NCBI RefSeq assembly: GCF_002941025.1
Contig: NZ_PTJS01000001.1
Location: forward strand, 8,127,678 to 8,191,677
DNA: 64,000 nucleotides
Direction: 5' to 3'
From: Streptomyces sp. QL37
GTDB taxonomy: Bacteria > Actinomycetota > Actinomycetes > Streptomycetales > Streptomycetaceae
The position numbers and the translations under genes were made by a program. The notes below the pieces were generated by a model, which saw nothing but the letters and a program-made list of their open reading frames with translations, made no database searches and was not told the DNA's origin. Positions within the stretch are counted from its first letter, which is position 1; each line of letters opens with the position of its first letter. This document shows positions 26,831-39,825 of this stretch, in pieces.

Positions 26831-28285
26831 GTGGGAACCGAGGAACGCCGCCGGGGAATTCTCGAGACGGCCCGACAGGACGGTGCGGTCGACGTGAACC
26901 GGCTGGCCGAACGGTTCGAGGTCGCCAAGGAGACCATCAGGCGCGATCTCCACACCCTTGAGGAGCACGGCCTCGTACGGCGCACGCACGGTGGTGCCTA
27001 CCCGGTCGAGAGCGCCGGATTCGAGACCACGCTGGCGATGCGCACCACGCACCACGTACCGCAGAAGTCACGGATCGCGACGGCCGCCGCCGAGCTGCTC
27101 GGCGACGCCGAGACGGTCTTCATCGACGAGGGCTTCACCCCTCAGCTCATCGCCGAGGCGCTTCCCCGCGACCGGCCGCTGACGGTGGTCACGGCGTCCC
27201 TGGCCGTCGCCACCGTCCTGGCGGACTCGGAGAAGACCGCCGTGCTCCTCCTCGGCGGGCGTGTGCGCGGCAGCACCATGGCGACCGTCGACCACTGGGC
27301 CACCCGCATGCTCGCCGACTTCGTCATCGACCTGGCCTACGTCGGTGCGAACGGCATCTCCCGCCAGTACGGGCTGACCACCCCGGACCCGGCGGTCGGC
27401 GAGGTCAAGGCGCAGGCCATGCGCAGTGCCCGCCGCCGCGTCTTCGCCGGCGTCCATTCGAAGTTCGGAGCGGTGAGCTTCTGCCGCTTCGCCGGTGTCG
27501 GCGACTTCGAGGCCGTCGTCACCGACACCGGCGAAGCGGCAGAAGCTCACCGCTCCGAACTTCGAATGGACGCCGGCGAAGACGCGGCGGCGGGCACTGC
27601 GCATGGCCTGCGCCTTGACCTCGCCGACCGCCGGGTCCGGGGTGGTCAGCCCGTACTGGCGGGAGATGCCGTTCGCACCGACGTAGGCCAGGTCGATGAC
27701 GAAGTCGGCGAGCATGCGGGTGGCCCAGTGGTCGACGGTCGCCATGGTGCTGCCGCGCACACGCCCGCCGAGGAGGAGCACGGCGGTCTTCTCCGAGTCC
27801 GCCAGGACGGTGGCGACGGCCAGGGACGCCGTGACCACCGTCCTGGCGGACTCGGAGAAGACCGCCGTGCTCCTCCTCGGCGGGCGTGTGCGCGGCAGCA
27901 CCATGGCGACCGTCGACCACTGGGCCACCCGCATGCTCGCCGACTTCGTCATCGACCTGGCCTACGTCGGTGCGAACGGCATCTCCCGCCAGTACGGGCT
28001 GACCACCCCGGACCCGGCGGTCGGCGAGGTCAAGGCGCAGGCCATGCGCAGTGCCCGCCGCCGCGTCTTCGCCGGCGTCCATTCGAAGTTCGGAGCGGTG
28101 AGCTTCTGCAGCTCCAGCATCTGGGGGTTGTTCACCATCAGTACGTTCAGTGCGTCCCCCCCTCCGAACGCGGTGCCGCCTGCTCCGGCGCACCCGGCGG
28201 CGAGGAAGGCCATCACTGCCGTGCCCGCGACCGCACGCACGCGGGTCCCACGGCGTCGTTGCTGGTGGGGCATAGATTCTCCTGA
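26831..28285 (+). CDS. DeoR-family regulator with aberrant C-terminus
   Basis: The first 230 codons are a good DeoR/GlpR regulator: HTH ILETARQDGAVDVNRLAERF, VAKETIRRDLHTLEEHGLVRRTHGGA, and the sugar-phosphate-sensing domain with TVVTASLAVATVLA, LLGGRVRGSTMATVD and YVGANGIS. The chain then runs into inverted copies of the same gene and of the next one, so codons after about 27521 encode sequence unrelated to DeoR (AGEDAAAGTAHGLRLDLADR and on). A normal family member ends near 255 residues; about 25-30 native C-terminal residues are missing. The GTG start follows AGGGAT. It probably controls the polyol operon downstream, if functional. Confidence 0.7.
   Translation: MGTEERRRGILETARQDGAVDVNRLAERFEVAKETIRRDLHTLEEHGLVRRTHGGAYPVESAGFETTLAMRTTHHVPQKSRIATAAAELLGDAETVFIDEGFTPQLIAEALPRDRPLTVVTASLAVATVLADSEKTAVLLLGGRVRGSTMATVDHWATRMLADFVIDLAYVGANGISRQYGLTTPDPAVGEVKAQAMRSARRRVFAGVHSKFGAVSFCRFAGVGDFEAVVTDTGEAAEAHRSELRMDAGEDAAAGTAHGLRLDLADRRVRGGQPVLAGDAVRTDVGQVDDEVGEHAGGPVVDGRHGAAAHTPAEEEHGGLLRVRQDGGDGQGRRDHRPGGLGEDRRAPPRRACARQHHGDRRPLGHPHARRLRHRPGLRRCERHLPPVRADHPGPGGRRGQGAGHAQCPPPRLRRRPFEVRSGELLQLQHLGVVHHQYVQCVPPSERGAACSGAPGGEEGHHCRARDRTHAGPTASLLVGHRFS
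27181..27842. repeat. fold-back duplication 1 (321-bp inverted repeat in deoR-like gene)
   Basis: Bases 27181-27501 recur as their reverse complement at 27522-27842, separated by 20 bases. The turn lies at a natural short hairpin (CCGGTGTCGG and CCGACACCGG). The segments compared by eye match without difference. Confidence 0.9.
27835..28109. repeat. fold-back duplication 2 (third copy of deoR-like segment)
   Basis: Bases 27835-28109 repeat 27210-27484 in the original orientation, shifted by 625 bases. The switch from the inverted segment occurs in the shared octamer CCACCGTC, whose complement GACGGTGG occurs 21 bases away in the parent gene. Confidence 0.9.
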
Positions 28286-28643
28286 TCGGTCGTAGCGGCT
28301 CGCGGATCGGTGCCCGTGCCCTGCGGCTCTCCTGACGGTTCCGGGCATGGCGGGGCTGCCCTCCGGGTCTCCCCGAGGGCAGCCCCGCCATGCCCGGAAC
28401 CGTCAGGAGAGCCGCAGGGCACGGGCACCGATCCGCGAGCCGCTACGACCGATCAGGAGAATCTATGCCCCACCAGCAACGACGCCGTGGGACCCGCGTG
28501 CGTGCGGTCGCGGGCACGGCAGTGATGGCCTTCCTCGCCGCCGGGTGCGCCGGAGCAGGCGGCACCGCGTTCGGAGGGGGGGACGCACTGAACGTACTGA
28601 TGGTGAACAACCCCCAGATGCTGGAGCTGCAGAAGCTCACCGC
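28095..28643. repeat. fold-back duplication 3 (269-bp inverted repeat at the start of the binding-protein gene)
   Basis: Bases 28095-28363 are the reverse complement of 28375-28643, with an 11-base loop. They duplicate the leader and first 60 codons of the downstream binding-protein gene. The switch from the previous segment uses a 15-base match, GCGGTGAGCTTCTGC. Confidence 0.9.
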
Positions 28644-29823
28644 CGAGCACTTCACCGAGGAGACCGGCATCAAGGTCCACTTCACGGTGCTCCCGGAGAA
28701 CGACGTCCGCGACAAGATCAGTCAGGACTTCTCCAACCAGGCGGGCCAGTACGACGTCGGCACCATCAGCAACTTCGAGGTGCCCTTCTTCGCGAAGAAC
28801 GAGTGGCTGCACCCCCTCGACACCTACGCCGCCGAGGACACCGCCTTCGACCAGGACGACATCCTCGAACCCCTGAGGGAGTCACTCACGGCCGAGGGCA
28901 AGCTCTACGCCGAACCCTTCTACGGCGAGTCGTCCTTCCTCATGTACCGCAAGGACGTCTTCGACTCGAAGGGGCTGACGATGCCCGCGCACCCCACCTG
29001 GACCGAGGTGGCGGAACTCGCGGCGCGGGCCGACGGCGCCGAGCCCGGCATGAAGGGCATCTGCCTGCGAGGACTGCCCGGCTGGGGCGAGCTCATCGCC
29101 CCGCTCACCACCGTCGTCAACACCATGGGCGGCACCTGGTTCACCGAGGACTGGAAACCCCGGCTCACCTCACCCGAGTTCAAGAAGGCCACCGAGTTCT
29201 ACGTCGACCTGGTGCGCAAGCACGGCGAGCGCGGCGCCTCCCAGTCCGGATACGCCGAGTGCCTCAACAACATGACGCAGGGCAAGACCGCCATGTGGTA
29301 CGACGCCACGGCGGGCGCCGGCTCCCTGGAGGCGGCGGGGTCCCCGGTCAAGGGGAAGATCGGCTACGTGCCCGCGCCGGTCGAGGAGACCAAGAGCTCC
29401 GGGTGGCTCTACACCTGGGCCTGGGGCATCCAGAAGGCGTCCAAGAAGGCGGACGACGCCTGGAAGTTCGTCTCCTGGGCTTCCAGCAAGGAGTACGAGT
29501 CGCTCGTCGGTGAGACCAGCGGCTGGTCCAACGCCCCGGCCGGCAAGCGGGCCTCCACCTACGACAATCCCGAATACCGCAAGGCGGCGGGCGCCTTCGC
29601 GGACGTCACCGAGCAGGCCATCTCCGGCGCCGACCCGAAGAACCCCGGCGTCCAGCCGCGCCCCGTGCCGGGAATCCAGTTCGTCGGCATCCCCGAGTTC
29701 ACCGATCTCGGAACCAGGGTCGCGCAGGAGATCAGCGCGGCCATCGCCGGCCGCCAGTCCGTCGACAAGGCGCTGGCCGCTTCCCAGAAGCTGGCCGAAC
29801 AGGTCGCCAAGGAGTACCGATGA
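28465..29823 (+). CDS. polyol/sugar ABC transporter, substrate-binding lipoprotein
   Basis: A 452-residue solute-binding protein. Signal peptide with lipobox LAAGC (Cys28) marks it as a lipoprotein. The mature part contains NVLMVNNPQMLELQKLTAEH, TFTEETG-type segment and QYDVGTISNFEVPFFAKNEW, like the sorbitol/mannitol-binding SmoE group. CAGGAGA precedes the ATG. Two permeases follow with overlaps, then a Zn dehydrogenase and a sugar kinase, so the ligand is probably a sugar alcohol. The first 60 codons and leader also exist as an inverted copy just upstream. Confidence 0.85.
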   Translation: MPHQQRRRGTRVRAVAGTAVMAFLAAGCAGAGGTAFGGGDALNVLMVNNPQMLELQKLTAEHFTEETGIKVHFTVLPENDVRDKISQDFSNQAGQYDVGTISNFEVPFFAKNEWLHPLDTYAAEDTAFDQDDILEPLRESLTAEGKLYAEPFYGESSFLMYRKDVFDSKGLTMPAHPTWTEVAELAARADGAEPGMKGICLRGLPGWGELIAPLTTVVNTMGGTWFTEDWKPRLTSPEFKKATEFYVDLVRKHGERGASQSGYAECLNNMTQGKTAMWYDATAGAGSLEAAGSPVKGKIGYVPAPVEETKSSGWLYTWAWGIQKASKKADDAWKFVSWASSKEYESLVGETSGWSNAPAGKRASTYDNPEYRKAAGAFADVTEQAISGADPKNPGVQPRPVPGIQFVGIPEFTDLGTRVAQEISAAIAGRQSVDKALAASQKLAEQVAKEYR

Positions 29824-36761: not shown

Positions 36762-37652
36762 ATGACGGGCACATCTGGTCCTCTGGAAGGCCGCGTGGCC
36801 GTCGTGACCGGTGCCGCGCGAGGGCTCGGCGCGGCCGTCGCACGCGAGCTGGCGGACCGCGGCGCCACGGTGGCCCTGATCGGCCGTGAGGAAGCCGGCC
36901 TAGCCGCGGTGCGGGACTCGCTCCCCGGGCACGCGCGGTGCTGGGAGGCCGACGTCACCGACGAGGCGGGAATGGCGCGGGTGGCCGACGACGTACGGGA
37001 GCGGCTCGGTCCCGCCTCGGTCGTCGTCGCCAACGCGGGCCTGGCCGAGGGCGGCCCCTTCGCCGAGTCCGACCCGGCGACCTGGCGGCGCGTGATCGAG
37101 GTGAACCTGATCGGCAGCGCGACCACGGCTCGGGTCTTCCTGCCCCAGCTGCGCGCCACCCGGGGCTACTACCTCCAGATCGCGTCGCTCGCCTCCATCG
37201 GAGCCGCGCCCATGATGAGCGCGTACTGCGCCTCCAAGGCCGGCGTGGAGTCGTTCGCGCACTCGCTGCGCGCCGAGCTCGCCCATGAGCACGTCGCGGT
37301 GGGCATCGGCTATCTGAACTGGACCGACACCGACATGATCCGCGACGCCGACCAGCACCCCGTGCTGCGCGAGCTGAGGGCGCACATGCCCAGGCCCGCG
37401 CGCAAGGTCTACCCGGCGGAGACCGTGGCGCGCCGCATGGTCCGGGCGGTCGAGCGCCGCAGTGCCGCCGCGTACATGCCGGCGTGGCTCCGCGCCACGC
37501 AGCTGGTGCGCGCCGCGATGCCCCCGGTCGTCACGGCGCTCTCGAAGCGGGAACTGCCCAGACTGGCGCGGACGGCCCCGTTCGAGGCCACTGGGCTCCT
37601 CGGGGCCGGCGGCCGGGCCGACGCCTCCGGCCGGCGGGGACCGGACGGCTGA
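36762..37652 (+). CDS. SDR family oxidoreductase
   Basis: A 296-residue SDR with cofactor motif TGAARGLG, VANAGLAEG in the NAG position and active site YCASK. The C-terminal extension (MPAWLRATQLVRAAMPPVVTALSKRELPRL) resembles the membrane-associated tail of the DHRS7/DltE-like group. The ATG at 36762 has GAGGAGA seven bases upstream; an earlier in-frame GTG adds 21 residues. Fragments of the gene's last 50 bases recur at 38041 and inverted at 39021. Confidence 0.85.
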   Translation: MTGTSGPLEGRVAVVTGAARGLGAAVARELADRGATVALIGREEAGLAAVRDSLPGHARCWEADVTDEAGMARVADDVRERLGPASVVVANAGLAEGGPFAESDPATWRRVIEVNLIGSATTARVFLPQLRATRGYYLQIASLASIGAAPMMSAYCASKAGVESFAHSLRAELAHEHVAVGIGYLNWTDTDMIRDADQHPVLRELRAHMPRPARKVYPAETVARRMVRAVERRSAAAYMPAWLRATQLVRAAMPPVVTALSKRELPRLARTAPFEATGLLGAGGRADASGRRGPDG

Positions 37653-37751
37653 AACCCGCCCCACCCGGCGCGTACACGGGCCGGACTGAGTACGGGGGAG
37701 CGGGACGGCTGAGTACGTGACCCGATCCCGGCAGGTGTCCCCGCTGGTCGA

Positions 37752-37994
37752 ATGGGGGTCATGCTCCCCGAAGCGCCGACGCGCCCCCGCATCCAGAACC
37801 TGACCAGCGCAGGTACGGCGCTGGCCGTGACCCTGCTCCCGCTGGCCGTCGGCGTCCTGCTGGCCAGGACGATGGCGCTGGACCCGATGACATCCGTGAA
37901 CGCCTTCGTCACCGGTGGAGGTCAGCGCGTCCGGCTCGCCCCTTCGCGGTGGATGCTGAAGGCTCGAACGCACGAGCTCCTTTCCCGGCGGTAA
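37752..37994 (+). CDS. possible small membrane protein, doubtful
   Basis: An 80-codon frame with one hydrophobic stretch (GTALAVTLLPLAVGVLLARTMAL) after a short hydrophilic start. The last 30 codons look like non-coding sequence, so the frame may be a truncated gene whose 3' part was lost in the rearranged stretch just downstream. No family is recognised. Confidence 0.25.
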   Translation: MGVMLPEAPTRPRIQNLTSAGTALAVTLLPLAVGVLLARTMALDPMTSVNAFVTGGGQRVRLAPSRWMLKARTHELLSRR

Positions 37995-38111
37995 TGGCAT
38001 ATCTGTCCAGGTAAGCGCTGTCGCTCCTGTTACACGGATCGGCGGGGGCCGGGCGGCTGAAACCCGCCCCACCCGGGGGTCAGGGTCCGGGGGGGGCCCC
38101 GGCGCCCACCC

Positions 38112-38237
38112 CCAGCCGCCACTCCGTCAACCTCCGCGGCTGGACGCTCACCGACGAGAGCCGCCGCTCGTACAAGTTCGACCTGCGGCTGCCCGGCCGC
38201 TCCTCCGTGCGCGTCCACACCGGTGTCGGCCGCGACA
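38112..38237 (+). repeat. partial copy of the lamin-tail coding region
   Basis: 126 bases identical to 39554-39679 in the lamin-tail gene, same orientation, without start or stop. Its right end joins directly to a copy of that gene's upstream region. Confidence 0.85.
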
Positions 38238-38548
38238 ACGGCCCCCCGAAAGGGTCGGTGCAACGATCAACGGTTGACAGGTCTACGACTGCCGGAATCC
38301 GTGCCGGGTGCAGTCGTGTGTGACAGAAATGTCCGCACTTCGTCACACGAACCAGGGCACCTTTCGGCCACCTCGGAAGCGGGACAAAGTTTGCGTTCCC
38401 GGCACGACGCCGGGGTCGGAAAAACGCCCGGAGCTCCATTCCGGGCCCGCATGATGAGGGGTTTCCATGTCCCGTTCCGCACGACGGATCACCGCCACCG
38501 TCTTCGCCTCAGGCGCCCTGCTCGCCGCAGCGGCCCTCCCGGCATCGG
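38237..38548 (+). repeat. copy of the lamin-tail leader and first codons
   Basis: 312 bases matching 39104-39415 in the same orientation, offset 867, with one base change seen (CTTCGC for CTCGC). It ends at the palindrome centre. Confidence 0.88.
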
Positions 38549-39020
38549 CCGATGCCGGGAGGGCCGCTGCGGCGAGCAGGGCGCCTGAGGCGAAGACGGT
38601 GGCGGTGATCCGTCGTGCGGAACGGGACATGGAAACCCCTCATCATGCGGGCCCGGAATGGAGCTCCGGGCGTTTTTCCGACCCCGGCGTCGTGCCGGGA
38701 ACGCAAACTTTGTCCCGCTTCCGAGGTGGCCGAAAGGTGCCCTGGTTCGTGTGACGAAGTGCGGACATTTCTGTCACACACGACTGCACCCGGCACGGAT
38801 TCCGGCAGTCGTAGACCTGTCAACCGTTGATCGTTGCACCGACCCTTTCGGGGGGCCGTTGTCGCGGCCGACACCGGTGTGGACGCGCACGGAGGAGCGG
38901 CCGGGCAGCCGCAGGTCGAACTTGTACGAGCGGCGGCTCTCGTCGGTGAGCGTCCAGCCGCGGAGGTTGACGGAGTGGCGGCTGGGGGTGGGCGCCGGGG
39001 CCCCCCCCGGACCCTGACCC

Positions 39021-39071
39021 CCGGGTGGGGCGGGTTTCAGCCGTCCGGTCCCCGCCGGCCGGAGGCGTCGG
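39021..39071 (-). repeat. inverted copy of the SDR gene 3' end
   Basis: 51 bases are the reverse complement of 37619-37669, spanning the stop codon of the SDR gene. The following 32 bases, up to 39103, have no other copy in the window that I could find. Confidence 0.8.
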
Positions 39072-39103
39072 GGCGGGGGTGAACGGGGCGCCATGACCAG
39101 GTG

Positions 39104-39333
39104 AACGGCCCCCCGAAAGGGTCGGTGCAACGATCAACGGTTGACAGGTCTACGACTGCCGGAATCCGTGCCGGGTGCAGTCGTGTGTGACAGAAATGTC
39201 CGCACTTCGTCACACGAACCAGGGCACCTTTCGGCCACCTCGGAAGCGGGACAAAGTTTGCGTTCCCGGCACGACGCCGGGGTCGGAAAAACGCCCGGAG
39301 CTCCATTCCGGGCCCGCATGATGAGGGGTTTCC
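39104..39333 (+). promoter_or_regulatory. long leader of the lamin-tail gene
   Basis: The 230 bases before the start codon include TTGACA at 39141 and a GTGTGAC/GTCACAC inverted repeat near 39185 and 39210. The sequence between is less GC-rich than coding DNA and may form a structured 5' leader. I do not recognise a known riboswitch. The region is duplicated upstream. Confidence 0.4.
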
Positions 39334-39825
39334 ATGTCCCGTTCCGCACGACGGATCACCGCCACCGTCCTCGCCTCAGGCGCCCTGCTCGCCGCAGCGG
39401 CCCTCCCGGCATCGGCCGATGGCCGGGACCACGGTCACAACCGGCCGGCACAGCGCTCGGCGGTCGTCCTGGGAGAGATCCAGTACGACAGCCCCGGCCG
39501 CGACAACGGCTCCAACCGGAGCCTGAACGCCGAGTGGGTCACCGTGACCAACACCAGCCGCCACTCCGTCAACCTCCGCGGCTGGACGCTCACCGACGAG
39601 AGCCGCCGCTCGTACAAGTTCGACCTGCGGCTGCCCGGCCGCTCCTCCGTGCGCGTCCACACCGGTGTCGGCCGCGACACCCGGCACGACGTCTACCAGG
39701 ACCGCCGCCACTACGTGTGGGACAGCAGGGACACCGCCACGCTCCGCGACAACCGCGGGCACAAGGTCGACTCCGAGTCCTGGGGCCGGCACCACCGTGA
39801 CGGCGGCCACCGCGGCAACCGCTGA
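39334..39825 (+). CDS. secreted lamin-tail-domain protein
   Basis: A 163-residue exported protein. Signal peptide SRSARRITATVLASGALLAA with ASA cleavage is followed by a lamin-tail (LTD) beta domain: VVLGEIQYDSPG, NAEWVTVTN, HSVNLRGWTLTDES, YKFDLRLPG and TLRDNRGHKVDSESW. LTD domains are Ig-like binding modules found on secreted nucleases and on stand-alone actinobacterial proteins of unknown role. This is the intact copy; partial and inverted copies lie upstream. A strong hairpin follows the stop. Confidence 0.85.
   Translation: MSRSARRITATVLASGALLAAAALPASADGRDHGHNRPAQRSAVVLGEIQYDSPGRDNGSNRSLNAEWVTVTNTSRHSVNLRGWTLTDESRRSYKFDLRLPGRSSVRVHTGVGRDTRHDVYQDRRHYVWDSRDTATLRDNRGHKVDSESWGRHHRDGGHRGNR

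Follow-up and report, generated by a model that had tools for sequence, protein, structure and literature searches.

Between the gene of a DeoR-family regulator and the sugar ABC transporter operon that follows it, the deposited genome of Streptomyces sp. QL37 runs back and forth through copies of its own sequence. We asked whether this zigzag belongs to the chromosome or arose on the way to the assembly. The locus lies in a 64,000-nucleotide stretch of contig NZ_PTJS01000001.1 (positions 8,127,678 to 8,191,677), hereafter the window, whose numbering is used throughout. An earlier note on this DNA had read the pattern as repeated template switching, either in the cell or during library preparation or gap closure.

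Results

The sequence between deoR and the binding-protein gene folds back on itself

Performing a self-comparison, we find three near-perfect inverted repeats in 27181-28653, and the path through them goes forward, back, forward, back, and forward again. The arms of the first pair (27181-27505 and 27518-27842) are 325 nt long and 100% identical; those of the second (27535-27820 and 27828-28113) and the third (28085-28367 and 28371-28653) measure 286 nt at 99% and 283 nt at 98% identity, respectively. Base-by-base pairing showed that the differences are confined to the arm ends. The cores are mismatch-free over 321 bp (27181-27501 with 27522-27842), 275 bp (27539-27813 with 27835-28109), and 269 bp (28095-28363 with 28375-28643). 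The path that the earlier note had traced over 27181-28643 was therefore correct. Since the core arms are identical, the copies are too recent for divergence.

Comparison with relatives identifies the pieces as copies of the two adjoining genes themselves. Aligned to the Streptomyces silvae locus (L037), the deoR part runs forward over 26831-27532, back over 27491-27860, and forward over 27828-28109; the start of the binding-protein gene runs back over 28095-28366 and then forward from 28372. The first of these blocks is 93.6% identical to positions 2062-2763 of L037, whose deoR homologue carries HTH_DeoR and DeoRC domains. The product of the substrate-binding protein gene matches SBP_bac_1 (E 7.7e-50), and the closest relatives have proteins 95-96% identical to it. 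The features are collected in Table 1.

Table 1. Features of the deoR zigzag and of the second cluster in the window
Feature	Position	Strand	Description
deoR-family regulator gene	26831..27532	+	last codons missing; ends where similarity to relatives stops
First forward deoR-segment copy, native	27181..27501	+	self-comparison, base pairing
Turn 1	27502..27521		20-nt loop separating perfect arms
Inverted deoR-segment copy	27522..27842	-	self-comparison, base pairing, S. silvae alignment
Turn 2	27814..27834		21-nt loop
Second forward deoR-segment copy	27835..28109	+	self-comparison, base pairing, S. silvae alignment
Turn 3	28095..28109		15-bp match of deoR (27470) and the binding-protein gene, inverted (28629)
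Inverted copy of the binding-protein gene 5′ leader and start	28095..28363	-	self-comparison, base pairing, S. silvae alignment
Turn 4	28364..28374		11-nt loop
Native leader and sugar ABC transporter substrate-binding protein gene	28375..29823	+	ATG at 28465
Second zigzag cluster	37613..39679		start of lamin-tail-domain protein gene

Pairing and turn analysis also agreed in essence with the four turns described before (a hairpin, an 8-bp match, a 15-bp match, and an 11-base loop). Native stems at the turns were looked at in the deoR cluster alone. Comparison with G029 and S. silvae suggests that the right half of the stem at turn 1 is native, in which case this flanking stem is 10-11 bp. At turn 2, the segments 27181-27188 and 27210-27217 of the native forward sequence form the 8-bp inverted match. 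On the binding-protein side, S. silvae has no exact copy of the 15-bp match at turn 3, which makes this match particular to the sequence of the strain and not conserved. Of 13 palindromes in the assembly, 12 have a central loop of 0-34 nt; the script did not properly parse the remaining one, in L146. Small loops of this kind, as in snap-back hairpins, together with the 8-15-bp matches at deoR, suggest that real chimeric molecules existed, and not an assembler's word overlaps alone.

Relatives carry a short, simple junction, and the native deoR tail is absent from the assembly

G029 is the closest relative among the 81 genomes searched (binding protein 96% identical). The homologues of positions 27532 and 28372 lie 132 bp apart in this genome and 144 bp apart in S. 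silvae, where the window has about 840 bp. This native stretch comprises the C-terminus and stop codon of deoR and intergenic DNA rich in GC; the end of deoR is conserved in all four relatives aligned. A probe for the deoR tail and intergenic region, taken from S. silvae, found no match in the strain's 8.78-Mb assembly at E ≤ 0.001. The same probe matched its counterpart in G029, G005, and G030, which served as the positive control. The deoR gene of the window is thus without its tail.

We also fetched the surroundings of homologous binding-protein genes, 109 loci in all (L007-L115), among which some species may occur twice. A deoR gene lies upstream of the binding-protein gene in 106 of them, and the other three (L036, L043, and L059) are contig ends. 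None of the 109 loci has an inverted self-match of at least 60 bp at 90% identity or more. Most likely, the real strain has an ordinary deoR gene and a short intergenic region, followed by the transporter operon.

Close inverted pairs recur across the assembly

A second cluster lies 9 kb away in the same window (Table 1). It contains a palindrome with two 509-bp arms and further inverted pieces, and the G029 homologue of the gene affected carries an LTD domain. The copies in this cluster differ at one base (38503 and 39370).

For the rest of the genome, we took 59 stretches of 20 kb each, spread over the main contig outside the window (1.18 Mb in all, about 13% of the contig). The control sample was 60 stretches (1.2 Mb) of four related genomes: 20 each from G047 and G029, and 10 each from G005 and G031. 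With thresholds set after the first clusters had been seen, inverted pairs of at least 50 bp and 95% identity within 1 kb occurred in 8/59 own and 0/60 control stretches (Fisher p = 0.003). Changing the limits gave 7/59 versus 0/60 for pairs within 100 bp (p = 0.006), 8/59 versus 1/60 within 3 kb (p = 0.015), 7/59 versus 0/60 within 3 kb at 98% identity (p = 0.006), and 12/59 versus 1/60 within 1 kb at 90% identity (p = 0.0009). The control exceptions were L166, with arms 1.46 kb apart, at the 3-kb limit and L168 at 90% identity. The deoR zigzag is more than chance, given that no control stretch holds a pair within 1 kb.

The eight own stretches are L127, L130, L132, L146, L262, L263, L267, and L270, to which 90% identity added L137, L141, L260, and L272. 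The one pair in L132 has 707 bp between its arms and is not a fold-back. Extrapolating 8/59 to the whole main contig would give roughly 60 stretches with close inverted pairs. The 8,943-bp contig C2 (L135) carries two further inverted clusters; it is a small leftover contig, possibly of unresolved repeats. C2 resembles a repetitive stretch of the main contig C1 near 6.30-6.33 Mb.

Eight clusters were compared with G029, namely the two in the window and those in L127, L130, L146, L262, L263, and L267; L132 and L270 were left out, and the repetitive matches of the two C2 clusters gave no simple answer. In all eight, the deoR cluster included, the flanks are collinear and G029 has a single simple spot. 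Besides the 132 bp at deoR, the flank spacing in G029 is about 27 bp at the second cluster of the window, 244 at L127, 31 at L130, 205 at L146, 151 at L262, 121 at L263, and 0 at L267. This assembly has about 410-1,700 bp at these spots, against about 0-244 bp in G029. The fate of the native stretch varies. At L127, judged against G029, the missing stretch takes in the ends of a uracil-DNA-glycosylase-family gene and a helicase-C3/WYL gene. Nothing is lost at L130, where an inverted piece contains the 31 bp that are absent between the flanks. At L267, nothing is missing relative to G029, and G005 has 179 bp there. In the five clusters that were traced, nearly all pieces derive from the neighbourhood of the spot.

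GC content and folding of the affected spots

The stretches between the flanks are GC-rich in the relatives (71-82%, five clusters). The best 100-bp GC window reaches the 95th percentile of its locus at deoR, L130, and L146, and does not reach it at the second cluster of the window or at L127. The native deoR spot of S. silvae, the one spot folded, folds no better than its shuffles (z -0.8). A strong hairpin or extreme GC as the cause was thus not borne out.

Among the 80 loci from named genomes, six contigs start at most 3 kb upstream of where the match lies (L036, L043, L059, L060, L063, and L106). Three of them, L036, L043, and L059, which belong to other Streptomyces assemblies, start about 180, 160, and 60 bp upstream of the start codon, the second and third values being computed from matched residue numbers; these starts coincide with the end of deoR or follow closely behind it. 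Such contig starts are a hint, from a small count and post hoc, that the spot is hard to assemble.

Discussion

Three findings favour an artefact: such clusters recur in the assembly, relatives have a simple junction, and the native deoR tail is missing. As judged from sequence comparison, the zigzag is very probably artificial in one way or another, whether through chimeric molecules or through the assembly program alone. Probably, fold-back chimeric molecules were built into the consensus of the deposited sequence. In library preparation or amplification, short native inverted matches (8-15 bp) would have let single strands fold back, and a polymerase would have extended the folded strand into a chimeric molecule that reads forward and then back. 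At spots with poor coverage of the true sequence, the chimeras could then have been taken up by the assembler or in gap closing. The outcome at deoR would be a zigzag of local copies replacing about 130-145 bp of real sequence. We infer the in-vitro origin, the poor coverage at deoR, and the route of the chimeras into the consensus from the assembly and its relatives. Template switching, as proposed in the earlier note, fits the junctions well; of the two origins that it had left open, we favour the artefact over an event in the cell.

Foldback reads in long-read data reportedly arise from technique (PMC12870357). The structures seen here would share this technical origin, but those are long-read artefacts, and the arms of the inverted pairs in this assembly span only about 50-880 bp. 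For sonicated libraries, chimeric reads are described in which an original strand and its inverted complement meet at native inverted repeats (the PDSM model, PMC10908179). The zigzag shares this way of joining; however, the PDSM reads are described there as low-frequency artefacts in human DNA, whereas here an assembled bacterial consensus makes several successive turns. Whole-genome amplification is likewise described as yielding artificial palindromes that harm assembly (PMC6218980), but in long reads of amplified DNA. Literature searches, judged by titles and abstract openings, gave no account of such gap-closer errors or of Streptomyces assembly artefacts.

A gap-closing or assembly program might also have made the zigzag alone, walking local reads through short overlaps with no chimeric molecules involved. 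The main contig spans 8.77 Mb, and a sample of 852,943 bases contained one N, as might be expected of a closed scaffold; the local origin of nearly all pieces in the five traced clusters would suit such a walk. However, unpaired loops as long as 34 nt lie within the fold-backs, and turns 1 and 2 depend on matches of just 8-11 bp. Usual assembler overlaps are longer than this. The short matches and unpaired loops indicate that reads holding the turns probably existed, and we consider the program acting alone rather unlikely.

Serial template switching in the cell, during replication or repair, would have produced an inverted triplication of the deoR segment fused to an inverted start of the binding-protein gene. 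Bacteria are known to form tandem inversion duplications. Such duplications and inverted triplications share with the zigzag the forward-inverted-forward order and the short inverted matches at the turns, and the identical arms would fit a recent event. A tandem inversion duplication, however, keeps the original downstream junction on one copy. Here this junction is lost, a probe for the native deoR tail having no match in the assembly, and other spots of the genome are scarred alike. Similar scars in 8 of the 59 sampled stretches do not speak for one event at one locus, and all eight compared clusters are simple in G029. Moreover, palindromes that are long and perfect tend to be unstable in bacteria. 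We therefore hold an origin in the cell to be very improbable. Slightly more doubtful still is the broader form of this idea, in which the zigzags are real and fold-back template switching across the genome, for example through a replication or repair defect, left dozens of inverted triplications. Dozens of recent, near-perfect local inverted lesions in one living genome, several of them replacing conserved sequence, are implausible.

A functional element, for instance a mobile element or an inverted array with a regulatory role, might be suspected from the placement of the zigzag between a regulator gene and its operon, but the pieces copy the two neighbouring genes themselves, and we rejected this reading, whose probability is next to nil, as none of the 109 homologous loci has inverted copies. 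A search of the PLSDB plasmid database matched 20 records, the best covering 61% of the query and none 80%.

On the reading that we prefer, fold-back chimeras in the consensus, the consequences reach beyond one locus. This near-closed assembly appears to hold false inverted copies that truncate gene ends, as at deoR and, relative to G029, at the uracil-DNA-glycosylase-family gene of L127. False copies of this kind also create false ORFs: a 484-aa ORF (26831-28285) starts in deoR and continues through zigzag-derived sequence, and annotation built on this assembly would be wrong there. They could pass for rearrangements or for regulatory arrays. Scanning for close, near-identical inverted pairs that relatives are without would be a cheap test of assembly quality.
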